A stretch of 64,000 bases of DNA from Brevundimonas sp. (GTDB lineage: Bacteria; Pseudomonadota; Alphaproteobacteria; Caulobacterales; Caulobacteraceae), in assembly GCF_027484365.1 (NCBI RefSeq), contig NZ_JAIXTC010000021.1, positions 1-64,000 of the forward strand. Reading direction: 5' to 3'. Below, piece after piece: positions 801-47,035 of the stretch. A program made the position numbers and the translations under genes. Below the pieces are notes generated by a model. The model had not been told where the DNA came from, did not search any database, and was given only the letters and a program-made list of their open reading frames with translations. Each line of letters starts with the position of its first letter. Within the stretch, counting starts at the first letter, position 1.

Positions 801-2791
801 TAGGCCGCGCCACTGGAAGACCCGGCATCGTCGCGGGTGATGGCGCCGGTCGCGATCGAGACCCCGTCAATGCTCACGCTACTGCCCAGCCGGTCGCGAT
901 CAATGGCGTCGCTGGCGGTCAGGATCTGCTGTTCGGTCCAGACGCCCCCGGCGCGCGTGAAGACGAAGACCGCCCCCCGGGTGATGCCACCGGCAGGATT
1001 GGTCGGAGCCCCGATCGCCGCCGTGTCGCCCTGCACGGCGAGCGCATAGCCGAAGTTGGCGTTGTCCGCCACGCTGCTGGGTTGCAGTCGAGCCTGCTGG
1101 GACCAGGTCGTTCCGGAGCGGGTGAAGACATAGGCCGTGCCGCGAGCGGCTCCCCCTGCCTCGGCGAAGGGCGCGCCGACGACGACAGTGTCGCCGGACG
1201 CGGCGACGAAATAGCCGAAGCGATCGTCAGCATTGGCGTCGCTGGCCTTCAGCTTGGCCTGCTGGGTCCAGATCGTTCCGGAGCGTGTGAAGACATAGGC
1301 CGCGCCGGAGAGAGAACCGAGGGAGTCTTCGGAATAGGCGCCCGCGATGACCGTATCTCCGGAAATGGCGACCGAATAGCCGAGGTTGTCGCTGGCCAGT
1401 CGGTCAGCGGCCGTCAGTTCAGCCTGCTGGGACCAGACGCCCCCAGACCGGGTGAAGACATAGACGGAGCCGCTGTTGTTTACCCCGCCGTCATCGGCCT
1501 GGTGGGCACCGACGACCAGGGTGTCGCCGTCAATATCGAGGTTAATGCCAAAGCGGTCGGTGCCGGTCGCGTCGGTGTTGACCAGCTTGGCCTGCTGCGT
1601 CCAGGTCGTGCCCGACCGCGTGAAGACGTAAACCGCACCGGAGTTGCGGCCACTGGTGATCCTCCCTATGGCGCCGACCGCCACGGTGTCCCCCGATATG
1701 GCGATCGACGTGCCCAGGGCGTCGTTGAGCTCGGGGGCTTCCGCCGGCACCAGCCTCGCCTGCTGGCTCCACACGCCTCCGGATTTCACGAAGACATAGG
1801 CGGCGCCGGTGTCAGTGACCGTGCCGCTTTCGTCCTTCCCGTTGGCCCCGACGACCACGGTGGATCCGGAAATGTCGATCGAATAGCCGAACTGATCGAT
1901 CGCCGCCGCATCGCTGGCGTTCAGGCGGGCGGCCTGGGTGAAGGTCGGGTCCACGATGATGGGATAGACGGCGTCTCGGGCGTCTACATCCACGGTGATC
2001 GTGTCGCCCAGGCCGCGCATGGCGGCAGGCAGTTTGCGCCCCGTGGCGTCCTTGACGATCAGGCCCGCGTAGCGAAGGCGGGCGCTCTTGTCCGCGTTGT
2101 TCAGGCGGATGTCATCGCCGTCCTGCTCGGCGATGAAGCCCCCGCCGACCTCCATCATGAATCTCAGGCTTTCGCTGGCCCCATCCGGCGCTTCCGCCAC
2201 GTCGAAGCCCTGTTCGATTCCGCCGGGGCGATTGATGTACCACTCGGTGACGTTTCCGCGCCGGAACTCGACGCGCTCGCCATTTTGAACGGGAGAAGCC
2301 GTCGACAACGGCTCGAGCGACTCGGGCGCGCCATAGGCCGCGAGACGAACCGGCAGGCGCCAGTCCCTATCCTTGCCCCCCGCAAGAGCGAAGCCGTCCT
2401 CATTGAAATGAGCGACATAGTCCTGTCGGGGGTTGGCCGCCCGTAGCGCGGTGGAGGCTGCGTCAGGGCGATCAGCTACAGGCGTCGGCGTGTAGATCGC
2501 CTCGGCCAACAGTCCCTCGATCTGCGCCCTGTCAGAGGATGACAGCGCGTCGCCGCCCGCCAGGCGGACGGCCGGCCGGTCAAGCTTTTCCGACGGAGAA
2601 GGCGTCGGTCGTTCTGTCGTCGGGCTGGAATTCGCGGCTGTCGAAAACAGGACGCCGGACGCGGGAATGGCGGCCGGCTCGACCCTCGCCTCTTGAGGCA
2701 GTGCGGTGGCCAGAGCGATTGCAAGCGCGAAAGCTGCAAGCCCTCCGACAGCGGTGACGAGACGGACCTTGACCACTGAAAGAGGCAACAT
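1..2791 (-). CDS. Large secreted repeat protein with FG-GAP-like and putative Ig (He_PIG-like) repeats; 5' part only, continues past the left edge
   Basis: The minus strand reads open from ATG at 2791 (MLPLSVVKVRLVTAVGGLAAFALAIALATALPQEARVEPA..., signal-like). It continues with VFTRSGTxWxQQAxL...VAxxGDTVVVGAP repeats and then AVSPGLPAGLxFSTTTGQITGTPTSASATTTYTVTVTDQ repeats. No stop before base 1. Confidence 0.8.
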   Translation of the reverse strand, partial: MLPLSVVKVRLVTAVGGLAAFALAIALATALPQEARVEPAAIPASGVLFSTAANSSPTTERPTPSPSEKLDRPAVRLAGGDALSSSDRAQIEGLLAEAIYTPTPVADRPDAASTALRAANPRQDYVAHFNEDGFALAGGKDRDWRLPVRLAAYGAPESLEPLSTASPVQNGERVEFRRGNVTEWYINRPGGIEQGFDVAEAPDGASESLRFMMEVGGGFIAEQDGDDIRLNNADKSARLRYAGLIVKDATGRKLPAAMRGLGDTITVDVDARDAVYPIIVDPTFTQAARLNASDAAAIDQFGYSIDISGSTVVVGANGKDESGTVTDTGAAYVFVKSGGVWSQQARLVPAEAPELNDALGTSIAISGDTVAVGAIGRITSGRNSGAVYVFTRSGTTWTQQAKLVNTDATGTDRFGINLDIDGDTLVVGAHQADDGGVNNSGSVYVFTRSGGVWSQQAELTAADRLASDNLGYSVAISGDTVIAGAYSEDSLGSLSGAAYVFTRSGTIWTQQAKLKASDANADDRFGYFVAASGDTVVVGAPFAEAGGAARGTAYVFTRSGTTWSQQARLQPSSVADNANFGYALAVQGDTAAIGAPTNPAGGITRGAVFVFTRAGGVWTEQQILTASDAIDRDRLGSSVSIDGVSIATGAITRDDAGSSSGAAYVFSDTTLTTTQAVASRTVSVGAAITPFTPVTGSGGLGVLSYAISPGLPAGLSFSTTTGQITGTAASASATTTYTVTVTDQTTPTAQTSSKTFSLTVDPPAAPPLNTTQAVASSTATVGSAITAFTPVTAGGGTGTLSYAVSPGLPAGLTFSTTTGQITGTPTSASAATTYTVTVTDQTSPVAQTSSKTFSLTVNGALDTVQAVASRILTQGVAATAFTPVTAAGGTGTLSYAVSPGLPAGLAFDTTNGQITGTPTATSATATFTVT
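900..1980 (-). repeat. Tandem FG-GAP-like coding repeats, period about 165 bp (55 aa)
   Basis: The 'cctgctgg..ccag' and 'gtgaagacataggc' segments recur around 1100, 1265, 1430, 1595 and 1760. Confidence 0.7.
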
Positions 2792-3471
2792 GAACGAGTT
2801 CCACCGAACGCGCTTTGCGCGAACCCGCGTATGGAGGCCGAAACGTCAGCGTCGGCGCAATGCTGCGGCAAGAATTCGCAATCGCGGCCAAACTCTTTGA
2901 TGGGCTCGACGTCTTCACCGGACAGCTCACCGATTACATCAGCGTTAGTGCCGTCAGCTCAGTCCAACAGCGCACAACAGATGAGAACCGACACAAATTC
3001 GGGAAGCGAACTCGTATGTCGGCGCAGGCGTCTTTCGACCCTGATGAACTTATCGTACCTGAGATCGCTTGATCAGATGTTCCTTCGGCGCTTGTAGTTT
3101 ATCAACGATTAAACAACAGACGGTATAGCGCCGAAACTGATTAACTCTGTATCCATGCGCTCACTGCCAATGCTTCGCCACCCGCTCCGAGGCGTCGGCG
3201 ATGCGGCGGAGCGGGCCGCTTGCCTTTGAGGATGCCGACGACTTACGGACCGAACCTGATGGTCCAGCATCGGATTGTTCCATCGCTCAGGTCGCGGAAA
3301 CGGACCGTGAAACGGCATGGAGCCGCTCCCCCACCCCGGCGGATGACGCCTGAACGAGCGCGGCGGCACGGCGCCAGCCTCCCCTGACGCCGCCCCCCCC
3401 CCGGCCAGCCTCAACCGGTGACCCGTTCGCGCCGGACCGAAAGAAGCTTCGTGGCGCCCAACAGATCGGGT

Positions 3472-6355: not shown

Positions 6356-7982
6356 CCAGCAGGAAGCCCAGCGCCGCTGTCGCGATGGCGATGACGATCG
6401 GATACCAGAGGCCGTAGTAGATGTTGCCCGTGGCGGCGACCATGGCGAAGGCCGTGGTCGGCAGGAAGCCGCCGAACCAGCCGTTGCCGATGTGATAGGG
6501 CAGCGACATCGAGGTGTAGCGGATGTTGGTCGGGAACATCTCAACCAGGGCCGCCGCGATCGGGCCGTAGACCATGGTCACATAGAAGACGAGCACGAAC
6601 AGGATCGCGATGACCAGCGGCTTGTTCACAAGGGCGCTGTCAGCCTTGGCAGGATAGCCGGCGGCCTTGAGGGCCTCGCCCAACCCCTTTTCCCAGTCTG
6701 TGCGGGCCGTCTTGAAATCGGCCGGAGGCATGGTCTCGCCGCGGAAGCTCTGAACGGTTGTTCCACCGATACGGACCTCGGCCACCGTCCCTGCGGGAGC
6801 GGCGACGTTTTCGTAGGTGACGCCCGCCTTGGCCAGCCAGGACTTGGCAAGGTCGCAGGACGTGTTGAACACCGTCTTGCCGATCGGGTCGAACTGGACC
6901 GAACAGTCGGCGGGGTCGGCATAGACCGAGACCGGAGCCGAAGCCGTGGCCGCCGCCAGTTGCGGATTGGCCGCGCCAGTCAGGGCATGGAATAGCGGGA
7001 AATAGGTCAGGGCCGCGATCAGGCAGCCGCCCAGTATGATCGGCTTCCGGCCGACCTTGTCCGACAGCCAGCCCCAGAAGACGAAGAAGGGGGTGGCCAG
7101 CAGCAGGGCCGCGGCGATCATCATATTGGCCAGCGCGCCATCGACCTTGAGCACACGCTCAAGGAAGAAAAGGGCGTAGAACTGGCCCGTGTACCAGACC
7201 ACAGCCTGACCGGCCGCCAAACCGACCAGGGCGATGAGCACCAGCTTCAGATTCGGCCATTTGCCGAAGGAGTCCTTCAGGGGGGTCTTCGACGCCTTGC
7301 CCTCGTCCTTCATGCGCTGGAAGGCGGGGCTCTCGGCCAGCTTCAGCCGGATCAGCAGCGACACGCCCAGCATCAGGATCGAGAGCAGGAAGGGAATGCG
7401 CCAGCCCCAGTCGAGGAAGGCCGCCTCCCCCACTGCGAACCGCACGCCGAGGATCACCAGCAACGAGATCATCAGCCCGGCCGTGGCCGTGATCTGGATG
7501 AAGGAGGTGTAGAAGCCGCGTTTGCCCGGAGGCGCATGCTCGGCGACATAGGTCGCGGCCCCGCCATACTCTCCGCCCAGGGCCAGCCCCTGGATCAGCC
7601 GCATCAGCACCAGGATGATCGGCGCGGCGATGCCGATGGCGGCGTAGTTGGGCAACAGACCGACCACGAAGGTCGACAGACCCATCAGCAACATGGTCAC
7701 GAGGAAGGTGTTCTTGCGCCCCCACAGGTCGCCCAGCCGCCCGAACACGATGGCCCCGAAAGGCCGCACCGCGAACCCGGCGGCAAACGCCATCAGGGCG
7801 AAGATATAGCCCGTCGTCTCGTTCACGCCCGAGAAGAACTGGGTCGTGATGATCGCGGCCAGGGAGCCGTACAGATAGAAGTCGTACCATTCGATCACCG
7901 TCCCGACCGACGAGGCCAGGATCACCAGCCGGTCGTCCTTGCCGATGCGGGTGTCGGGCGTTCCAGCACGGGTATCGGTCAT
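6321..7982 (-). CDS. MFS transporter, metabolite:H+ symporter (MHS) type
   Basis: MTDTRAGTPDTRIGKDDRLVILASSVGTVIEWYDFYLYGSLAAII...GRLGDLWGRKNTFL...QGLALGGEYGGAATYVAEHAPPGKRGF. About 130 aa hydrophilic insertion between late TM segments. Confidence 0.92.
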   Translation of the reverse strand: MTDTRAGTPDTRIGKDDRLVILASSVGTVIEWYDFYLYGSLAAIITTQFFSGVNETTGYIFALMAFAAGFAVRPFGAIVFGRLGDLWGRKNTFLVTMLLMGLSTFVVGLLPNYAAIGIAAPIILVLMRLIQGLALGGEYGGAATYVAEHAPPGKRGFYTSFIQITATAGLMISLLVILGVRFAVGEAAFLDWGWRIPFLLSILMLGVSLLIRLKLAESPAFQRMKDEGKASKTPLKDSFGKWPNLKLVLIALVGLAAGQAVVWYTGQFYALFFLERVLKVDGALANMMIAAALLLATPFFVFWGWLSDKVGRKPIILGGCLIAALTYFPLFHALTGAANPQLAAATASAPVSVYADPADCSVQFDPIGKTVFNTSCDLAKSWLAKAGVTYENVAAPAGTVAEVRIGGTTVQSFRGETMPPADFKTARTDWEKGLGEALKAAGYPAKADSALVNKPLVIAILFVLVFYVTMVYGPIAAALVEMFPTNIRYTSMSLPYHIGNGWFGGFLPTTAFAMVAATGNIYYGLWYPIVIAIATAALGFLLVREGKDVDIHA

Positions 7983-23408: not shown

Positions 23409-23432
23409 ATATTGGCATCCTGCGTGCAATAT
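23409..23432. promoter_or_regulatory. Shared operator site A
   Basis: ATATTGGCAT-CCTGC-GTGCAATAT: left half perfect, right half one base shorter; just before the 23446 gene. Confidence 0.65.
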
Positions 23433-23445
23433 TCAGGAGGTTGCC

Positions 23446-24345
23446 ATGCGGCTTTTGAGAACGCCCGATTCCAGTTTCGCGAATCTGGAAGGCTATGATT
23501 TCGCGCCGCACTACACCGAAATCGCCGACGCGGACGGAACCGTCATCCGGATCCACCACGTCGACGAGGGTCCGCGAGATGGACCGCCGGTCTTGCTGAT
23601 GCACGGCAATCCGACCTGGGCCTATCTGTACCGCAGGATGATCCCGATCCTGGCCGCCGCCGGCTGTCGGGTCATGGCTGTGGATCTGGTCGGATGCGGC
23701 CGATCCGACAAGCCGGCCGAAAAGTCCGACTACACCCTTGCCCGTCACTATGACTGGATCGGTCGCTGGATGGCCGCGCTGGACCTGAAGGGGCTGACCC
23801 TCTTCTGTCAGGACTGGGGAGGAACGATCGGCCTTGCCCAGGTCGCCAACATGCCCGAGCGGTTCGACCGGGTGATCGCATGCAACACCGGCGTGCCGGC
23901 AGGCGAAGGCGGCAATGAGATGCTGCGGAACTGGCTGGCGATGATGGCGGTCCTGCCGGAATTTCCGTTCGACGCCGTCATGCAGGGCGGGATGACGGTT
24001 CCCCTCACCCCCGCCATGATGGCCGCCTATAAGGCCCCCTTCCCGGAGCCGGCCTACCAGGCGGGAATCGTCGCCTTCCCGCAACTAATCGCCATCTTCG
24101 AAGACAATCCCGGCGTGCCGCTGAACCGCGAGATCCGCGAAAAACTCAAGCGTTTCAACAAGCCCTTCCTGACCGTCTGGGGCGGGAAGGACGTGGTGAC
24201 TCCCGGCGGCGATCGGCGCCTTCAGCGTGAGATCCCCGGAACGGCGGGGCAGCCTCACCTTCACCTGCCGGAGGCCGGCCACTTCTTGCAGGAAGATGCA
24301 CCGGAGGAAGCGGCGCGCGCCATACTCTCCTTCATGGGGCGCTGA
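23446..24345 (+). CDS. Alpha/beta hydrolase, haloalkane dehalogenase-like
   Basis: MHGNPTWAYLYRRM, VDLVGCGRSDKP, nucleophile LFCQDWGGTIGL, acid VWGGKDVVTPGG, histidine EAGHFLQEDAPE. Confidence 0.85.
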   Translation: MRLLRTPDSSFANLEGYDFAPHYTEIADADGTVIRIHHVDEGPRDGPPVLLMHGNPTWAYLYRRMIPILAAAGCRVMAVDLVGCGRSDKPAEKSDYTLARHYDWIGRWMAALDLKGLTLFCQDWGGTIGLAQVANMPERFDRVIACNTGVPAGEGGNEMLRNWLAMMAVLPEFPFDAVMQGGMTVPLTPAMMAAYKAPFPEPAYQAGIVAFPQLIAIFEDNPGVPLNREIREKLKRFNKPFLTVWGGKDVVTPGGDRRLQREIPGTAGQPHLHLPEAGHFLQEDAPEEAARAILSFMGR

Positions 24346-24856: not shown

Positions 24857-24881
24857 GTTTCGTCACACAGGATGCCATAAT
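24857..24881. promoter_or_regulatory. Shared operator site B
   Basis: GTTTCGTCAC-ACAGG-ATGCCATAAT in the divergent gap 24849/24918; right half strong, left half weak. Confidence 0.5.
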
Positions 24882-26847: not shown

Positions 26848-26872
26848 ATTATGGCATAGTTAGTGCCAATAT
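26848..26872. promoter_or_regulatory. Shared operator site C
   Basis: ATTATGGCAT-AGTTA-GTGCCAATAT in the divergent gap 26845/26909. Confidence 0.72.
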
Positions 26873-28554: not shown

Positions 28555-30210
28555 TCAGTTCGACCAGGTGACGTAGGTGTCGCCGGTCTGGATAGGCTGA
28601 TCGCCGGTCCTGTCGACACCCACCGGCGCCTCGACCAGGGCCGGCCACATGGGAGCCCTCTGGGTCCTGTCGTGAGCTTCGAGCTGGGCTCTGAGCGCCG
28701 CGACCACCTCGGGTCTGCTGGCGGCCAGGTCATTCCGCTCGGTTGGATCGGAGGCGAGGTCGAACAGCCAGGTCCGGGCCGGACGGTCGAGCACCTGGAG
28801 TTTCCAGTCTCCGGCGCGCACGACCCGATAGCCGCCTGACCTCCAGAACAGGGCCTCATGCGGACGACCGGATGACTGCCCCGAAAGGAAGGGAGACAAG
28901 TCCACGCCGTCCATCGCACGGTCTGACGGCATGGAAGCACCCGCAGCGGCGGCAGCGGTGGCGAAGATGTCGAAATGCGAGACTGGGGCCGTCAGCCGTG
29001 TTCCCGCCGGAATACGGGCCGGCCAGTTCATGAAGTAGGGCACGCGGATGCCGCCTTCGAAGAAGGTCAGTTTCCAGCCGCGGAAGGGCTTATTGATGTC
29101 AGGCAGGCCGATGTAGTTCGCACCACCGTTGTCACTGGTGAAGACGACAAGAGTGTTGTCGTCGAGTCCCTGGGCCTTCAGTTCGGCCATGATCCGCCCG
29201 ACGCCGCGGTCGAGCGCGACGATCATCGCCGCATAGACCCGTTCACGGTGGTCGGTGATGTGGGAGAGCGCGTCGTAGTCCGACTTCAGCGCCTGAAGGG
29301 GCGTGTGGGGCGCGTTGTAGGCCAGATACATGAAGAACGGCCGGTTCCGGTTCGCCCGTATGCCCGCCAGCGCCTGGTCCGTCAGATAGTCAGTGATGTA
29401 GCCGTCGGGATGAAAACGGTCCCCGCCGTTGTACTGGACGCTGTAGGGCAGGTTCGCCCACAGGAATTTGTCGATCGGATCGAAGTCCTGACGCGAGTTG
29501 ACGACATCCGGATCCCGCGCCGGCAGATACATCTGGCCGCCCACCATGAAGCCAAGGCTTTCGTCGAAGCCCTGGTCTTCCGGCCGCATTCCCGCAGTCT
29601 CGCCGAGGTGCCATTTGCCGAGGTGCATGGTGTGGTAGCCACGCGTCTTGAGGAGCTCGGCAAGGGTGATCTCTCCGGCCGGCACCCCCATCTGTTCATA
29701 GGAGGGGGTCTGATCGACCCGGTCGCGGCGGAAGACGGGCCGCAGCTCCCGATCCCTTGGCGCCAGGGTCGGGATCAGCTGGGCCATCTGGACGGGGATC
29801 GAGGTGAACTCGAAGCCGAACCGGGTCGGATAGCGACCGGTCATCAGCGCTGCGCGCGAGGGGGAACAGGTCGCATTGCCCGCATAGCCCGATGCCAGCA
29901 CCGCCCCGCCCTGCGCCAGGCCGTCGATATTCGGAGTGCGGACGCTCCCCTCCCCGAGGCCGCCGTTCAGGCTGACGTCGTTGAAGCCCAGATCATCGGC
30001 GAGAATCACGATGACATTGGGGGGACGATCGGCCGGGGCTTCAGTCGCCGATGCCGGGCCGGGTTCCCACACCACGGGGCGGTTCGGTCCGACCGGAGGC
30101 GCGCGCCAGCCCGCGATATGCAGGATGACATAGTCCTTGAGCGCAACCCCGCCGAACCCAAGCACGAGCAGCCCGGCAAGGGCTCCACCGATCCAAACGG
30201 CCCGCTTCAT
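28555..30210 (-). CDS. Type I sulfatase, N-terminally membrane-anchored/Sec-type
   Basis: MKRAVWIGGALAGLLVLGFGGVAL anchor; NVIVILADDLGFNDVSLNG; formylglycine motif GNATCSPSRAALMTGRYPTRFG; GKWHLG; FTSDNGG. Confidence 0.94.
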   Translation of the reverse strand: MKRAVWIGGALAGLLVLGFGGVALKDYVILHIAGWRAPPVGPNRPVVWEPGPASATEAPADRPPNVIVILADDLGFNDVSLNGGLGEGSVRTPNIDGLAQGGAVLASGYAGNATCSPSRAALMTGRYPTRFGFEFTSIPVQMAQLIPTLAPRDRELRPVFRRDRVDQTPSYEQMGVPAGEITLAELLKTRGYHTMHLGKWHLGETAGMRPEDQGFDESLGFMVGGQMYLPARDPDVVNSRQDFDPIDKFLWANLPYSVQYNGGDRFHPDGYITDYLTDQALAGIRANRNRPFFMYLAYNAPHTPLQALKSDYDALSHITDHRERVYAAMIVALDRGVGRIMAELKAQGLDDNTLVVFTSDNGGANYIGLPDINKPFRGWKLTFFEGGIRVPYFMNWPARIPAGTRLTAPVSHFDIFATAAAAAGASMPSDRAMDGVDLSPFLSGQSSGRPHEALFWRSGGYRVVRAGDWKLQVLDRPARTWLFDLASDPTERNDLAASRPEVVAALRAQLEAHDRTQRAPMWPALVEAPVGVDRTGDQPIQTGDTYVTWSN

Positions 30211-30246
30211 GATCACTCCCCGTCCGGCCCTCCGCATCGGAGCCAG

Positions 30247-30277
30247 TACATATTGGCATGCAGGATGCCAATATGTA
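30247..30277. promoter_or_regulatory. Shared operator site D (perfect 31-bp palindrome)
   Basis: TACATATTGGCAT-GCAGG-ATGCCAATATGTA, 13/13 arm match, in the divergent gap 30210/30315. Confidence 0.85.
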
Positions 30278-35176: not shown

Positions 35177-35201
35177 ATTTTGACACTCATAGTGCTAACG
35201 T
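35177..35201. promoter_or_regulatory. Shared operator site F
   Basis: ATTTTGACAC-TCATA-GTGCTAACGT in the divergent gap before the TonB receptor. Confidence 0.55.
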
Positions 35202-37759: not shown

Positions 37760-39106
37760 ATGGGGCTCAGGGCGGCGATCGGGCCTCTGGTCGCGCAGGC
37801 GATCACATCGAACCGGCGCCGCGACGATCAACGGCGTCGGTTCGAGGCGGCTCGCTTGCGTCGCGGGCAGCCGCACGAAATCCTCTATTTCCATCAGGCG
37901 GATGATCCCTATTCCGCCCTGACGGTCGAGAGGCTCGCAGAGATATCCGCGCGATACGACGTGGTGATCACACCCCATCTGGTCCCGCCGCCGGCCGACT
38001 GGGCGGCTCCGGAACGCAGGAGACTGGAGGCCTACAGCCGCCGCGACGCCGCACAGATCGCCGCCGCCTACGGTCTGGCCCATGAGAGCCGCTCGGTGCC
38101 GCAGACCGAGGCGGTGCGTCGGGCCGAGGCCGTGCTTCAGTCCGCCATTGCCGCAGGGCAATTCCTTGCGGCCGCGCCGGTCGTCAGCCGCGCCCTGATC
38201 CAGGGCGACTCGCTCGACGAGGCCGCGACCGCCTTCGGAACGGCGGACGCGACCGTCGTGGCGGCTGCCCTTGCGGAGGGAAGCCGGCTGCGCGACCGCC
38301 TGGGCCACTATCTCGGCGCGACCCTGTTTCACGCCGGGGAATGGTACTGGGGCCTCGATCGTCTGGGTGATCTCGAGGCCCGTCTGCGGACCCTGGGGTG
38401 TGGCGACTCGTCCGCGGACCGGATGGTGGCCGCCCGCCCTGAGCTCCGGTTCGGGGAGACGGACCGTTCGGCCGATCTCTCGACACCGGCGCTGGAGATG
38501 TTTCTCTCGTTCCGCAGCCCCTACACCTATCTGGCGATCGACCGGACCATCGCGCTGGCGTCCCACTATCGGGTGGAGCTGCGCCTGCGTCCCGTCCTGC
38601 CGATGGTCATGCGGGGACTGCCCGTTCCGGCCGCCAAGCGGAACTACATCCTCAGGGACTGCAAGCGGGAGGCTGAACGGCTCGGGCTCCCGTTCGGCCG
38701 GGTCGCCGATCCGGTCGGGCGTCCGGTGGAGCGGGGCCTTGCCGTCCTGCACGGAGCCATCGGCGTCGGGCAGGGTCCAGCGTTTGCGACCTCCTTCCTT
38801 CGCGGTGTTTTTGCAGAGGGCGTCGACGCCGGGTCGGACCGGGGCCTGCGGACGCTGGTCCAGCGCGCCGGTCTCGAGTGGCGGCAGGCCCAGGGCTGGA
38901 TGGCGGATGACGGCTGGCGAACCGAGGTTGAAAACAATCGCCTCGCGATGTTCGCCGATGATCTTTGGGGGGTGCCGTCCTTCCGGTTCGGCCAGCTGTC
39001 GACCTGGGGCCAGGACCGCCTCTGGCTGGTCGAGAAGGCCGTCGTCGAAACGCTCGGCCACCCCCGCGGGGTCGCCACCAGGACCAGTCCCAGGACACCA
39101 TCATGA
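37760..39106 (+). CDS. Tandem double-domain DsbA/2-hydroxychromene-2-carboxylate isomerase-like protein
   Basis: Domain 2: LEMFLSFRSPYTYLAIDRTIALAS...GVPSFRFGQLSTWGQDRLWLVEKAV. Domain 1: HEILYFHQADDPYSALTVERLAEISARY...GATLFHAGEWYWGLDRLGDLEARL. Confidence 0.78.
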   Translation: MGLRAAIGPLVAQAITSNRRRDDQRRRFEAARLRRGQPHEILYFHQADDPYSALTVERLAEISARYDVVITPHLVPPPADWAAPERRRLEAYSRRDAAQIAAAYGLAHESRSVPQTEAVRRAEAVLQSAIAAGQFLAAAPVVSRALIQGDSLDEAATAFGTADATVVAAALAEGSRLRDRLGHYLGATLFHAGEWYWGLDRLGDLEARLRTLGCGDSSADRMVAARPELRFGETDRSADLSTPALEMFLSFRSPYTYLAIDRTIALASHYRVELRLRPVLPMVMRGLPVPAAKRNYILRDCKREAERLGLPFGRVADPVGRPVERGLAVLHGAIGVGQGPAFATSFLRGVFAEGVDAGSDRGLRTLVQRAGLEWRQAQGWMADDGWRTEVENNRLAMFADDLWGVPSFRFGQLSTWGQDRLWLVEKAVVETLGHPRGVATRTSPRTPS

Positions 39107-40188
39107 CCCTTCGCCGCGTCGCCCTCGCCGCCCTCGCTCTCATCCTGTTGGCCGCGGGCCTGCTGATCGTGTTCCAGCGACCGATCGGGGCCCGGGTGTT
39201 GGCCAGGATCGCCGACACCCAGGTCGGACGCGACAGCGTCACCACCATGCCCGACGGTCTCAATGTCGCGCTTTGCGGTACAGGCTCCCCTCTTCCGGAT
39301 CCCACGCGGGCCGGCCCCTGTAGCGCTGTGATCGTCGGCGGCAAGGTCTTTCTGGTCGACAGCGGCGAAGGGGCGGCGCGCAATCTGTCACGAATGGGAA
39401 TTCCCGCCGGACGAATCGAAGCGATCTTCCTGACGCATTTCCATTCCGATCACATCGACGGCCTCCCCCCGGTCCTCCTGCAGCGCTGGGTCGGCGGAAC
39501 GCACACCCAGCCCACGCCCCTGTACGGTCCGGAGGGGGTCGAGGCGGTCGCGGCCGGATTCAACGCCGCCTATGCGCTGGATTCCGGGTACCGGACCGGC
39601 CACCATGGTCCGGAGGTCGCGCCGCCGACGGGGCACGGCGCCACCCCCATGGTCTTCAGCGCACAGGCGGCGGCCGGGCCGGACGGCGTGGTGGTCTACA
39701 ATGCCGGGGGCCTGGTCGTCAGGGCCTTCACGGTCGATCACGGTCCCGTCAGCCCTGCCGTGGGCTACCGCTTTGACTACGGCGGGCGCAGCGTGGTCTT
39801 CAGCGGCGACACGGCGGTTTCGGCGCATCTGAACGCCATGGCTACGGGCGCGGACCTCCTGATCCATGAGGCGCTGCAGCCGGCCCTGCTTTCGGCCATC
39901 GAGCATCGACTGGACCAGCGGGAGCTTCCCAACCTGGCCCAGGTCATGCGTGACATCGTCGACTACCACGCCACGCCGGAACAGGCTGCCGATGCTGCAC
40001 AGGCGGCGGGCGTCGACGCGCTGGTGCTCAATCACCTGGTGCCGCCGCAACCCTTGGCCTACGGCTATCCGGCCTTTCTGGGCGACGCGCCGAAGCACTT
40101 CGACGGGCCGATCACCGTGGGCGAGGACGGCATGCTGTTCAGCCTGCCGCAAGGCGGCGACAGGATCATCCGCAAGCGGCTGTTCTAG
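39103..40188 (+). CDS. Membrane-anchored MBL-fold metallohydrolase
   Basis: N-terminal TM; CGTGSPLPDPTRAGPCSAVIVGGKVFLVDSGEGAARNL; FLTHFHSDHIDGLP; FSGDTAVSAHL. Confidence 0.92.
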   Translation: MTLRRVALAALALILLAAGLLIVFQRPIGARVLARIADTQVGRDSVTTMPDGLNVALCGTGSPLPDPTRAGPCSAVIVGGKVFLVDSGEGAARNLSRMGIPAGRIEAIFLTHFHSDHIDGLPPVLLQRWVGGTHTQPTPLYGPEGVEAVAAGFNAAYALDSGYRTGHHGPEVAPPTGHGATPMVFSAQAAAGPDGVVVYNAGGLVVRAFTVDHGPVSPAVGYRFDYGGRSVVFSGDTAVSAHLNAMATGADLLIHEALQPALLSAIEHRLDQRELPNLAQVMRDIVDYHATPEQAADAAQAAGVDALVLNHLVPPQPLAYGYPAFLGDAPKHFDGPITVGEDGMLFSLPQGGDRIIRKRLF

Positions 40189-40189
40189 A

Positions 40190-40828
40190 TCAGTTCGAGC
40201 TCAGCCGGGCGGCCATCAGCAGGGACCGCAGCATATGTTCCACGACCCTCCGGGCCTGGACGACGGTCAGATGCTGGTCCCTACGCAGTCCGATCCAGGT
40301 CGGCCAGGAAGAGGCGGAAACCATCGACTGGAGAAACAGCGACCGGTCCGCCTCGTCCAGCGGCATGAGCGAGGCGGAAAAGACAGTGCTCAGATAGATG
40401 CTGTGGGTCACATCGTCCTCTCGGAGCATCCGGTCGATGACGGAGTTCTCGGACCTCATCGAGCCGGCAACGGCACGGGCGGGCGTGACATATTCCCACA
40501 GTCGCCCAAGCCGCTGGGCGACTGCGGTGACCCGTTCGGACTCCGGCAGCAGGCTGATGTCGCGGGAGTGGAAGCGGGCGAAGACCTCGTCCCGCTGCAT
40601 GTGGGTCGCTGCGACGATCAGCTCATTGGTATCGGAAAAGTGACGGAAGACGGAACGCCGCGACACATTCGCCCGGTCGGCGACCGCATCCATCGTCGGC
40701 ATCTGCCGGGTTTCGCGGACAAGGTCCAGCAGGGCCCTCGCGATAGCCAGGCGACTCCGCTCGCTCCGCACACGGCGGCCATCGACGAAGGGCTGATCAT
40801 CAGCGGTTCCCGCCAAGGCACGCTCCAA
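40190..40828 (-). CDS. TetR family transcriptional regulator
   Basis: SRLAIARALLDLVRETRQMPTMDAVADRANVSRRSVFRHFSDTNELIVAATHMQ; TTG start as listed, adjacent to operator G. Confidence 0.92.
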   Translation of the reverse strand: MERALAGTADDQPFVDGRRVRSERSRLAIARALLDLVRETRQMPTMDAVADRANVSRRSVFRHFSDTNELIVAATHMQRDEVFARFHSRDISLLPESERVTAVAQRLGRLWEYVTPARAVAGSMRSENSVIDRMLREDDVTHSIYLSTVFSASLMPLDEADRSLFLQSMVSASSWPTWIGLRRDQHLTVVQARRVVEHMLRSLLMAARLSSN

Positions 40829-40853
40829 ATATTGACATTATGAATGCCGAAAC
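40829..40853. promoter_or_regulatory. Shared operator site G
   Basis: ATATTGACAT-TATGA-ATGCCGAAAC, immediately upstream of the tetR start and in the divergent gap to the SCP2 gene. Confidence 0.7.
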
Positions 40854-40919: not shown

Positions 40920-41222
40920 ATGACGCTAGACGAAATTACCTCGGAAATCCGGGGGCGGGTCGCCGCCAACGGGGGAATCAAGGGCAAGACGGTGAAGTTC
41001 CATTTCGGCGATGACGGCGCGATCCGCATCGACGCCAAGGGTGACGCCGTCGTCGTCGACAACGAAGACAGTGCGGCTGATTGCACGGTCAAGATCTCCA
41101 AGTCGGACTTCCTCGAAATGGCCGCCGGCAAGCTGAACCCCACGGCCGCCTTCATGTCGGGCAAGATCAAGATCGACGGCGACATGGGCCTGGCCATGCA
41201 GCTGGGCAACATCCTGAACTAG
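40920..41222 (+). CDS. SCP2 sterol-binding domain protein
   Basis: VKFHFGDDGAIRIDAKGDAVVVDNEDSAADCTVKISKSDFLEMAAGKLNPTAAFMSGKIKIDGDMGLAMQL. Confidence 0.94.
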   Translation: MTLDEITSEIRGRVAANGGIKGKTVKFHFGDDGAIRIDAKGDAVVVDNEDSAADCTVKISKSDFLEMAAGKLNPTAAFMSGKIKIDGDMGLAMQLGNILN

Positions 41223-43532: not shown

Positions 43533-43557
43533 ATTATGGCATCTTGAATGCCAATAG
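43533..43557. promoter_or_regulatory. Shared operator site H
   Basis: ATTATGGCAT-CTTGA-ATGCCAATAG in the divergent gap 43485/43593. Confidence 0.75.
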
Positions 43558-43592: not shown

Positions 43593-44636
43593 ATGCAAGA
43601 GAATCTGGCGGGGTCGGGCCTGTATCAGCTCAAGGGAGCGATCGGATCACCCTATTCGATGAAGATGCGCGCAGTCCTGCGGTATCGGCGAATTCCGTTC
43701 GTCTGGCAGGGGGGCATGGTCGGGTTCATCGCCGCCCAGGCGATGAAGGCCAAGGTGGTGCCGGTCCTGGTCACGCCGGAGGGCGAGGCCTGGAACGACT
43801 CAACCCTGCTGATCGAGCGACTTGAGGCCTGGCATCCCGGCTCGCGCAGTCTGGTGCCGACGGATCCGGCGGTGGCCTTCCTGTCGCTGCTGCTCGAGGA
43901 CCTGGCGGACGAATGGCTGGCCAAGGCCATGTATCTCTACCGCTGGGCCCGGCCGGTGGACCAGGAGCAGATGAGCCGCTGGCTCGCCTTTGACGCCGTG
44001 CGCGGCGCTGGAGAGGCCCGGATTCTCGAACAGGCGAAGATATGGCGGGACCGCCAGGTCGAACGACGCGACATCGTGGGGGTCGGCGAGGCGGCGCAAC
44101 CGGTCATCGAGGCCTCAGCCGCCCGGATCATGTCCGCCCTGGACCAGCGGGTGGTCGAGCGGGGGTTCCTGTTTGGCGACCGCCCGAGCGCGGCGGACAT
44201 GGCCTTCTACGGCCAACTGACCCAGCTCGCGACCGACCCGACGCCCCAAGCGCTCATGCGGGACCGGTATCCGTGGCTGTTCCGCTGGGTGCAGATCACC
44301 GACGATCTGTCGGGCGAGGTCGAGGGCCAGTGGGACGATGACGTCGATTCACCGCCCCTGAGGGCTCTGCTGGTCGAGTGCGCGACCCATCACCTTCCGC
44401 TTCTCACCGCGAACGCGGCGGCCATCCGGTCGGGACGGACACAGTTTCAGTATCGGGCCGGAGGGGTCGAACTGGAGCAGCCGACCGACCGCTATCAGGC
44501 CAAATGCCTGAAGGCGCTGCTGGAGGCCTTCGCCGCCCTGGATCGCGAGACTCAGGCCCGGCTGGTCCCGCTTCTGGCGGAGACCGGATGCCTGCCGTTT
44601 CTCACAGGAAATCATTCGGAAGGCGTTGCGGCATGA
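43593..44636 (+). CDS. GST-like protein with C-terminal extension (paralogue 3)
   Basis: YQLKGAIGSPYSMKMRAVLRYRRIPFVWQ...KVVPVLVTPEGEAWNDSTLLIERLE; extension ...AKCLKALLEAFAALDRETQARLVPLLAETG. Confidence 0.82.
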   Translation: MQENLAGSGLYQLKGAIGSPYSMKMRAVLRYRRIPFVWQGGMVGFIAAQAMKAKVVPVLVTPEGEAWNDSTLLIERLEAWHPGSRSLVPTDPAVAFLSLLLEDLADEWLAKAMYLYRWARPVDQEQMSRWLAFDAVRGAGEARILEQAKIWRDRQVERRDIVGVGEAAQPVIEASAARIMSALDQRVVERGFLFGDRPSAADMAFYGQLTQLATDPTPQALMRDRYPWLFRWVQITDDLSGEVEGQWDDDVDSPPLRALLVECATHHLPLLTANAAAIRSGRTQFQYRAGGVELEQPTDRYQAKCLKALLEAFAALDRETQARLVPLLAETGCLPFLTGNHSEGVAA

Positions 44637-47035
44637 CGGACACGCCCCCGAACGAGCGGCCGCGCCGCCATCTGGATCGACGCTCCCTTCTGATCGGCGC
44701 GGCGGCCGGGACCGTGGCCGCGACCGGCGGTGCCCTTGCCGTCGGTGCGATCCGCGAGGCGATGGCGCCCTACATCACGCCCTCGGCCGTGCCCGAGGGA
44801 CAGGCGGCCCGCGTGCGTGAATCCTTCAGGGACTCGCGGCCCTCCTACGCCGGATTGCCGACGGCGCCCGAGGGCGCCCCGAACATCATCACCATCGTGC
44901 TGGACGACGTCGGCTTCTCCGATCTGGGCTGCTACGGGAGCGAAATCCGGACGCCGACGTTCGACGCCCTGGCGGAAGCGGGCGTGCGCTATTCCAATTT
45001 CCGCACCTGCGCCATGTGCTCGCCGACCCGGGCCGCGCTGCTGACGGGCCTCAATTCCCATTCGGCGGGGATGGGCTGGCTGGCCGACATCGACAGCGGC
45101 TATCCCGGCTATCGCGGCGACCTGACCCGCGAGGCCGCGACCTTGCCCGAGATTCTGCGTGACGCGGGCTGGTCGACCTTCCTCGTGGGCAAATGGCATC
45201 TGAACAATGCCGCCAGCAGCGGCCCCAACGGTCCCTACTACAACTGGCCGACCTCGCGCGGGTTCGAGCGAGCCTACTGGTTCCAGGGCCATTCGACCGA
45301 CTATTTCAGGCCGTCCGAACTGTATGACGGCGTCGCCCCGATCGAACCCCCCACGGCCGAGGACTACTATGTTTGTGACGACCTGACCGATCGGGCGATC
45401 AGCTACATCCGGACGCAAAAGGCCATGTCGCCGGACAAGCCCTTCCATCTGCAACTCGCCTATCCGGGTGCCCATTCCCCGCTTCAGGCCAGGGGCCGCG
45501 AGCGCGACGCCTACAAGGGGTTCTACGATGCCGGCTGGGACGCCGTGCGCGCCGCCCGGCTCCAGCGCCAGAAGGCGATGGGTCTCCTGCCCGCGACCAC
45601 CAGCCTGCCCCCCCTCTCCTTCGGGGCTCGTCCCTGGGCTGAACTCGACGCGGTCGAGCGGCGCGTCTTCGCCCGATACATGGAGGTCTACGCCGCCATG
45701 ATCACCAATATGGACGCCAATGTCGGGCGACTGCTGGCGACCCTGAGCGAGCTCGGCCAGGCCGAAAACACCGTCGTTCTGGTGATGTCCGATAACGGCG
45801 GATCAGGAGAAGGCACGGCCGACGGTTCGCCCAATGTCTTCGCCCCGGCCTTCGGACGGCCGGTCCCGATCGAAAAGGCCGCCGAGCTCTATGGCGTGAT
45901 GGGCGAGGACGCCACCTTCCCCCACTATCCGATGGCCTGGGCCTGCGTGTCGAACACGCCGTTCCGGCTCTATAAACAGTATGCCCACCTCGGGGGCGTA
46001 GCCGACCCCCTGATCGTGTCCTGGCCCAGCCGAATCCGGGACAAGGGCAAGATTCGGGAGAAGTTCGTGCATGTCGTGGACGTCATGCCGACCTTGCTCG
46101 ACGCCGCAGGCGTGGATCGTCCGGAGTCCTATCTCGGCGCGCCGCAAAAGCCGCTGGAGGGAGCCAGCTTCCTGCCGAACCTGCTGTCGGCGGACGCGGC
46201 GACCCGCACGGGTCAGTACTATGAACTGGGCGGCAACCGGGCCTACGAGGACGAGCGCTGGCGGCTGGTCTGCCGGCATAAGCGCGGCACCCGCCAGGAC
46301 GAGGACGTCTGGGAACTTTACGATCTGAGCGGGGACCGCAATGAAAGCCGCGATCTCGCCGCAGCCCACCCCGACGTCGTCCAGCGACTTCGGGCGGCGT
46401 GGCAGGCGGACGCCGAGAAATACGGCGTCTTCCCGCTGGACGACCGCAGCCTGATGCTGAAACTGGTGCAGGACCGCCAGTCGAAGGGCATCCGCCCCCG
46501 CTGGGAGTTCCGCCCGCCGGTCGAGCGGATAACCCATGACGTGGCGCCGCTGGTCTGCGGCCTCGACCACGAGATCACGGTCGAGCTGGACTGGGCGCCC
46601 GGTCAGGACGGGGTGCTGGTGGCCTCGGGGTCCAAACACGCCGGCTATGTCCTCTATGTCGAGGACGGTCGCCTGTCCTACGAGTACAGCCTCGTGCCCT
46701 GGAGCGAACGGATCGTCGCCGACAGCCTGCTTCGGAGGGGCCGGAACGTGGTTCGCTATGTCCAGACCATGACGGCCCGCCCCTTCGACGGCGGCGGCGC
46801 GCTTTACGTGAACGGCCGGAAGGTCGGTGAACGCACCTATGAACAGGCGCTGTTCGCAACCGGCTATGACGGCTTCACGATCGGCGCTGACCTGGGGAAC
46901 CAGGTCTCGGCGCGATATGCGGGCCCCAATCCCTTCGGCGGCCGTATCGAGCGTGTATTGATCGAGGTCGACAACAAGCCGACGAATCCGCTGGAAACCC
47001 AGAGGTTCCTAGACCGGATGGGCATGACCGTATGA
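44633..47035 (+). CDS. Type I sulfatase with Tat-like signal
   Basis: DRRSLLIGAAAGTVAATGGAL; NIITIVLDDVGFSDLGCYGSEIRTP; formylglycine motif CAMCSPTRAALLTGLN; GKWHLN; VMSDNGGSGEG. Confidence 0.95.
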   Translation: MTDTPPNERPRRHLDRRSLLIGAAAGTVAATGGALAVGAIREAMAPYITPSAVPEGQAARVRESFRDSRPSYAGLPTAPEGAPNIITIVLDDVGFSDLGCYGSEIRTPTFDALAEAGVRYSNFRTCAMCSPTRAALLTGLNSHSAGMGWLADIDSGYPGYRGDLTREAATLPEILRDAGWSTFLVGKWHLNNAASSGPNGPYYNWPTSRGFERAYWFQGHSTDYFRPSELYDGVAPIEPPTAEDYYVCDDLTDRAISYIRTQKAMSPDKPFHLQLAYPGAHSPLQARGRERDAYKGFYDAGWDAVRAARLQRQKAMGLLPATTSLPPLSFGARPWAELDAVERRVFARYMEVYAAMITNMDANVGRLLATLSELGQAENTVVLVMSDNGGSGEGTADGSPNVFAPAFGRPVPIEKAAELYGVMGEDATFPHYPMAWACVSNTPFRLYKQYAHLGGVADPLIVSWPSRIRDKGKIREKFVHVVDVMPTLLDAAGVDRPESYLGAPQKPLEGASFLPNLLSADAATRTGQYYELGGNRAYEDERWRLVCRHKRGTRQDEDVWELYDLSGDRNESRDLAAAHPDVVQRLRAAWQADAEKYGVFPLDDRSLMLKLVQDRQSKGIRPRWEFRPPVERITHDVAPLVCGLDHEITVELDWAPGQDGVLVASGSKHAGYVLYVEDGRLSYEYSLVPWSERIVADSLLRRGRNVVRYVQTMTARPFDGGGALYVNGRKVGERTYEQALFATGYDGFTIGADLGNQVSARYAGPNPFGGRIERVLIEVDNKPTNPLETQRFLDRMGMTV

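Follow-up and report, generated by a model that had tools for sequence, protein, structure and literature searches.

Genes and features at the tetR locus

The window, that is, the whole stretch of DNA analyzed, covers 64,000 nt of a Brevundimonas contig (NZ_JAIXTC010000021.1, positions 1 to 64,000; genome G000). A gene on the minus strand, tetR (40190-40816), encodes a TetR-family regulator of 208 residues. Its reading frame, listed as 40190-40828, matches the N-terminal helix-turn-helix domain that marks the TetR family (Pfam TetR_N [PF00440], E = 1.1e-6, 28.8 bits against a cut-off of 24), and its helix-turn-helix sequence is MPTMDAVADRANVSRRSVFRHF. The AlphaFold model (mean pLDDT 73, moderate) has ten helices arranged in the all-helical TetR fold with a C-terminal ligand/dimer domain. 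Its fold matches in the PDB are TetR proteins, with TM-scores mostly of 0.45-0.7, and the best sequence match among solved TetR proteins shows low similarity (E = 3.5e-5). For the ligand the model gives little guidance, as it is too weak and resembles TetR proteins in general. Pfam scans of the cluster ORFs detected no DNA-binding domain other than TetR within 23.4-51.4 kb, in agreement with the preliminary description, which had named this protein as the sole recognizable DNA-binding regulator of that region.

The listed start codon of tetR, TTG at 40828, is CTG in a related genome (G337). TTG at 40816, together with a GGAG Shine-Dalgarno sequence at 40823-40826, is kept in all four tetR orthologues compared. 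The true start is therefore probably TTG 40816 and not the listed codon at 40828.

The neighbor of tetR across a gap of 103 bp is the divergent gene scp2 (40920-41222, plus strand), which encodes an SCP2 sterol-carrier-like protein (Pfam SCP2, E = 9.7e-23) and has an orthologue of 91-98% identity at the equivalent place in three genomes. On the other side, convergent with tetR, lies mbl (39067-40188, plus strand), coding for an arylsulfatase/RNase Z-like MBL-fold hydrolase (Pfam Lactamase_B_2) whose best PDB match is the arylsulfatase 8gyg (E = 1e-24). In other genera, mbl precedes tetR on the same strand.

The wider cluster is rich in enzymes. The gene abh (23446-24345, plus strand) encodes a hydrolase of the haloalkane dehalogenase family (NCBIfam PRK00870, 377 bits against a cut-off of 265); its product matches PDB 6f9o with E = 3.5e-94, and the catalytic Asp/Asp/His and the halide-binding Trp align with 6f9o and 5esr. 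There are two sulfatase genes, sulf1 (28555-30237, minus strand; Pfam Sulfatase, E = 2.9e-51), for which the start codon is provisional, and sulf2, in an ORF at 44378-47035 (plus strand; Pfam Sulfatase, E = 1.3e-57), for which the true start is probably further downstream. The cluster also encodes two FGE-type proteins, four GSTs, a GMC alcohol dehydrogenase, an aldehyde dehydrogenase, a long-chain acyl-CoA synthetase, a MaoC protein, and a TonB receptor.

Probable palindromic operators of the cluster

Between tetR and scp2 lies a 25-bp palindrome at 40829-40853 (ATATTGACATTATGAATGCCGAAAC), which reads ATATTGACAT-TATGA-ATGCCGAAAC. It is 66 bp from the ATG of scp2, and its other end adjoins the Shine-Dalgarno sequence of tetR, so that it lies within the promoter region of the regulator's own gene. 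The preliminary description had it facing scp2 and beginning at the base next to the listed tetR start codon. Both points hold for the listed start, and with the start at 40816 the real start codon is separated from the operator by 12 bp. The same spacing of 12 bp recurs at the dehalogenase gene, between the palindrome at 23409-23433 and the ATG at 23446.

We built a 25-bp weight matrix solely from sites in three related Brevundimonas genomes (G168, G337, and G186) and then ran it on the window. Seven strong sites scored 24.9-38.3 bits, and the next-best candidate scored 10.6 bits; the maxima of 100 shuffled windows averaged 10.2 bits and did not go beyond 20.2 bits. The tetR/scp2 site, which scored 31.4 bits, still reached 24.7 bits when all tetR/scp2 sites were removed from the training set. 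The palindrome consensus is ATATTGRCAY-N5-RTGYCAATAT. Eight sites, A-H, had been claimed for this cluster; seven stand clearly above background, and no candidate for an eighth operator rises out of it (31129, 10.6 bits; 28470, 7.4 bits).

All seven sites are intergenic within the one cluster, and six of them lie between divergent genes. Besides the tetR/scp2 site, these are the site upstream of the dehalogenase gene (23409-23433, 27.4 bits, kept in G168); that between the genes for DUF1330 (minus strand) and DUF2855 (plus strand) proteins (24857-24881, 25.1 bits, with a counterpart at local position 6565 of G168); that between the genes for an SDR (minus) and a PTGR/curcumin-reductase-like protein (plus) (26848-26872, 32.9 bits, kept in G168); that between sulf1 (minus) and an EF-hand protein gene (plus) (30250-30274, 38.3 bits); that between orf34 (minus) and the TonB receptor-DsbA-MBL genes (plus) (35177-35201, 24.9 bits); and that between gst2-gst1 (minus) and gst3-sulfatase2-fge1-gst4-acyl-CoA synthetase-fge2 (plus) (43533-43557, 34.1 bits). 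The last three are kept in both G337 and G168. The listed start of gst3 (43548) falls inside the operator at 43533, and ATG 43593, which follows GGAGG, is the likelier start.

The 3.4-Mb genome was scanned by pattern, not by weight matrix. The core TTGGCAT-N5-ATGCCAA has seven matches with up to two mismatches. Four of them lie in a 17-kb part of the cluster, and no site with zero or one mismatch is found anywhere else. The sole zero-mismatch site is the one at 30250, a perfect palindrome. The three other two-mismatch matches, elsewhere in G000 (stretches L053-L055), were rejected: the full matrix gives them no more than 3.6-10.2 bits, which leaves the cluster sites on their own.

The palindrome at tetR/scp2 is kept in G000, G337, G186, and G168 (AATATTGACAT...GAATGCC), while the surrounding bases vary. 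Its arm at 40832-40837 is TTGACA, where most other strong sites have TTGGCA. All four genomes share this arm, and since it matches a -35 hexamer that could serve scp2, the operator may double as the scp2 promoter. This match, and the recurrence of TTGRCA arms, could also be read to mean that the palindrome is a by-product of promoter, terminator, or coding sequence and not an operator. We consider that most improbable, given the 25-bp two-fold symmetry and constant N5 spacer, both kept over genera, the count of approximately five matches in 299 genomes for the pattern read backward against more than 100 for the true pattern, and the confinement of the strong window sites to gaps between genes of the cluster.

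TetR and the palindrome in related genomes

The full orthologous cluster is found in G168 (TetR 77% identical) and G337 (TetR 82% identical). G186, a Brevundimonas MAG, holds a remnant (L039, 11901-13941) with tetR (TetR 76% identical), scp2, a 51-residue match to fge1, and gst4, and this remnant is a natural deletion of the cluster. Its single operator is the tetR/scp2 site, retained despite the loss of most of the cluster.

For a comparison over greater distances, TetR homologues of 28-35% identity from other Caulobacteraceae genera were picked by protein similarity alone; R[ST]VFR is the common core of the recognition helix of the TetR homologues. A site above 15 bits was present within 2 kb upstream of tetR in 45 of 64 distant loci, in most of them above 20 bits; its usual place was the tetR promoter (-71 to -213) or the region in front of an mbl gene preceding tetR. 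The 13 control loci, which are the other TetR genes of G000, had no site, with scores of at most 9.1 bits. Altogether, 22 of 71 TetR loci had no site above 15 bits within 2 kb upstream; extending four of these 22 uncovered a more distant upstream site in each, in front of mbl and abh orthologues.

We then counted the exact pattern TWNTGRCAYNNNNNRTGYCANWA in 299 Caulobacteraceae genomes, scoring TetR as present at E <= 1e-12. The motif was present in 68 of 97 genomes with TetR and in 24 of 202 without it, and because the genomes are related, the Fisher p value of 5e-24 overstates their independence. Within single genera, the motif was found in 30/32 genomes with TetR versus 6/39 without it (g22) and in 30/37 versus 14/35 (g6), and on the tree the operator label needed 13 changes versus a shuffled mean of 19; these within-genus tables and the tree test guard against kinship only in part. 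The motif sites elsewhere precede orthologues or homologues of sulf1, abh, mbl, gst2/gst3, sulf2, the DUF2855 gene, and orf28, also in several genomes counted as lacking TetR, and sulf1 has operator-associated orthologues in other genera. The recurrence of cluster orthologues beside the motif points to a family-wide regulon and not an accident of the window. In one clade of another genus (L114-L117), the order sulf1, abh, operator, mbl, gst3, tetR forms a compact cluster. A plasmid search found no such TetR on plasmids, and a class-wide search of 385 sampled genomes found none beyond the family at E <= 1e-22.

The preliminary description had proposed TetR as the likely owner of the operator, and this proposal was strengthened by the conservation in four genomes, by the contrast between distant and control loci (45/64 versus 0/13), and by the co-occurrence across genomes. 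Conceivably, a regulator encoded elsewhere owns the palindrome and TetR is a bystander beside one site: G000 encodes 13 other TetR_N proteins, and 24 genomes have the motif without a TetR match at the threshold used. The loci of those 13 proteins lack the site, however, and several of the motif-only genomes have a more diverged tetR beside it; in four genomes so scored, the diverged tetR is in the same stretch as the site. Moreover, TetRs of this subfamily accompany the motif from genus to genus; among 131 Brevundimonas genomes, few contain the cluster, and elsewhere in the genus the motif is near background. An outside owner is thus quite unlikely, and we continue with TetR as the owner of the sites.

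Three Brevundimonas TetRs of 46-50% identity (in G207, G180, and G107) have the identical stretch SRRSVFRH, and the palindrome is absent before their tetR genes. The best scores in approximately 120 kb around these homologues were 21.2, 15.5, and 12.1 bits. The 21-bit match, in G180, was rejected as an operator: it resembles a G107 sequence just upstream of a tRNA-like gene and was taken as a tRNA promoter. Common to the three loci, by eye, is a TTATTACG-like element upstream of tetR, which is possibly a different operator read by the same recognition helix. In these genomes, either specificity would be set by other contacts or the sites lie elsewhere. Of these three loci (L044-L045 in G180, L046 in G107, L042 in G207), two adjoin gmc/aldh, and that of G180 also adjoins sulf1.

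Probable autoregulation, and possible ligand and substrate of the regulon

Autoregulation, which the preliminary description had considered likely, appears as a conserved arrangement, because in most loci the site lies either in the tetR promoter or at the start of the gene stretch to which tetR belongs. Taken together, the sequence comparisons argue strongly that TetR owns the palindrome and is autoregulated, with a probability that we put at roughly 0.9. A TetR dimer would bind the seven cluster sites through the palindrome, and at the tetR/scp2 site it would hold down its own level along with the expression of the catabolic genes. In front of tetR and the dehalogenase gene, where the sites adjoin the ribosome-binding sites, bound TetR would keep RNA polymerase out; the operators ending 12 bp before both start codons fit such promoter occlusion. 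A compound of the pathway would then bind the C-terminal domain and free TetR from the DNA; this could be the lipid-like substrate, with its sulfate or halogen, or a product, for example its acyl-CoA. The ligand is likely a pathway compound, as proposed before, and possibly a CoA ester, at which the fold matches hint weakly.

Repression is suggested by the operator position and by a rule from the literature: TetR regulators less than 200 bp from a divergent gene were repressors in that study (PMC3511530), and the gap between tetR and scp2 falls under this distance. On the other hand, some TetR proteins activate transcription, such as AtrA (PMC3511530), and the distances from operator to start vary in the cluster, so that blocking of the promoter core is not needed at all sites. 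TetR could then own the sites and act as an activator or dual regulator at some of them. Both the under-200-bp rule and the occlusion-like position of the operators beside the Shine-Dalgarno sequences of tetR and the dehalogenase gene speak for repression, and we regard activation as unlikely.

As an autoregulated repressor, TetR would belong with TetR, EthR, DesT, and QacR (PMC3511530), which likewise combine an N-terminal helix-turn-helix with a palindromic operator, placed in a short gap between divergent genes, and with likely autorepression. The present case differs in that one local regulator faces seven operators over 20 kb, mostly between divergent pairs. Such a switch is of a common type, and the novelty lies in a regulon that spans the family and in its unexplained chemistry. 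The acyl-CoA-sensing regulators B. subtilis FadR, T. thermophilus FadR, DesT, and M. tuberculosis FasR are among the fold matches of the model, as weak matches (E ~1e-3, TM-score 0.4-0.65), and the cluster encodes proteins in keeping with them, namely the acyl-CoA synthetase, the MaoC protein, and SCP2. We found no published description of the regulator or the motif in a search of mostly open-access literature.

As for known pathways, the alkyl sulfate (SDS) degradation module of a Psychrobacter plasmid (PMC10779009) is also a cluster for using sulfate esters of lipid-like molecules; in the present cluster, sulfatases stand beside alcohol and aldehyde dehydrogenases. The present cluster differs in its two S1 sulfatases with FGE-type proteins, MBL-fold hydrolase, four GSTs, and haloalkane dehalogenase, which are all probably controlled by one TetR. 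The dehalogenase itself resembles PRK00870 haloalkane dehalogenases of solved structure (6f9o, 5esr, and 4mj3) in its score above the family cut-off and its kept catalytic residues. The same search of the literature found no report linking a dehalogenase of this type with sulfatases and a TetR in one regulon.

The regulated dehalogenase and sulfatases suggest that the substrate is lipid-like, with sulfate and probably halogen. Chlorosulfolipids, which are made by freshwater (chrysophyte) algae, fit the enzyme list of the cluster. We tentatively raise the possibility, which we hold to be doubtful, that TetR is the master switch of an undescribed Caulobacteraceae-wide pathway for removing sulfate and halogen from lipid-like molecules such as these chlorosulfolipids, and that a halogenated or sulfated intermediate or its CoA ester releases it. 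If so, TetR would be a natural sensor for organohalogen-sulfate lipids, and a halogenated sulfolipid as substrate would open the question of who degrades such molecules in nature. More generally, TetR and its palindrome provide a regulator and an operator that can be tested as a pair, for an entire catabolic cluster that is unexplained and found repeatedly in Caulobacteraceae. Since the motif marks regulon genes in other genera, it offers a way to enumerate the whole pathway; TetR, for its part, could lead to the substrate through a search for the compound that makes it leave the DNA.

G168 has two further operator-like sites (L035, at 2186 and 3774; 17.2 and 19.2 bits), near a second dehalogenase paralogue (2458-3348, 46% identical) that is absent from the window.
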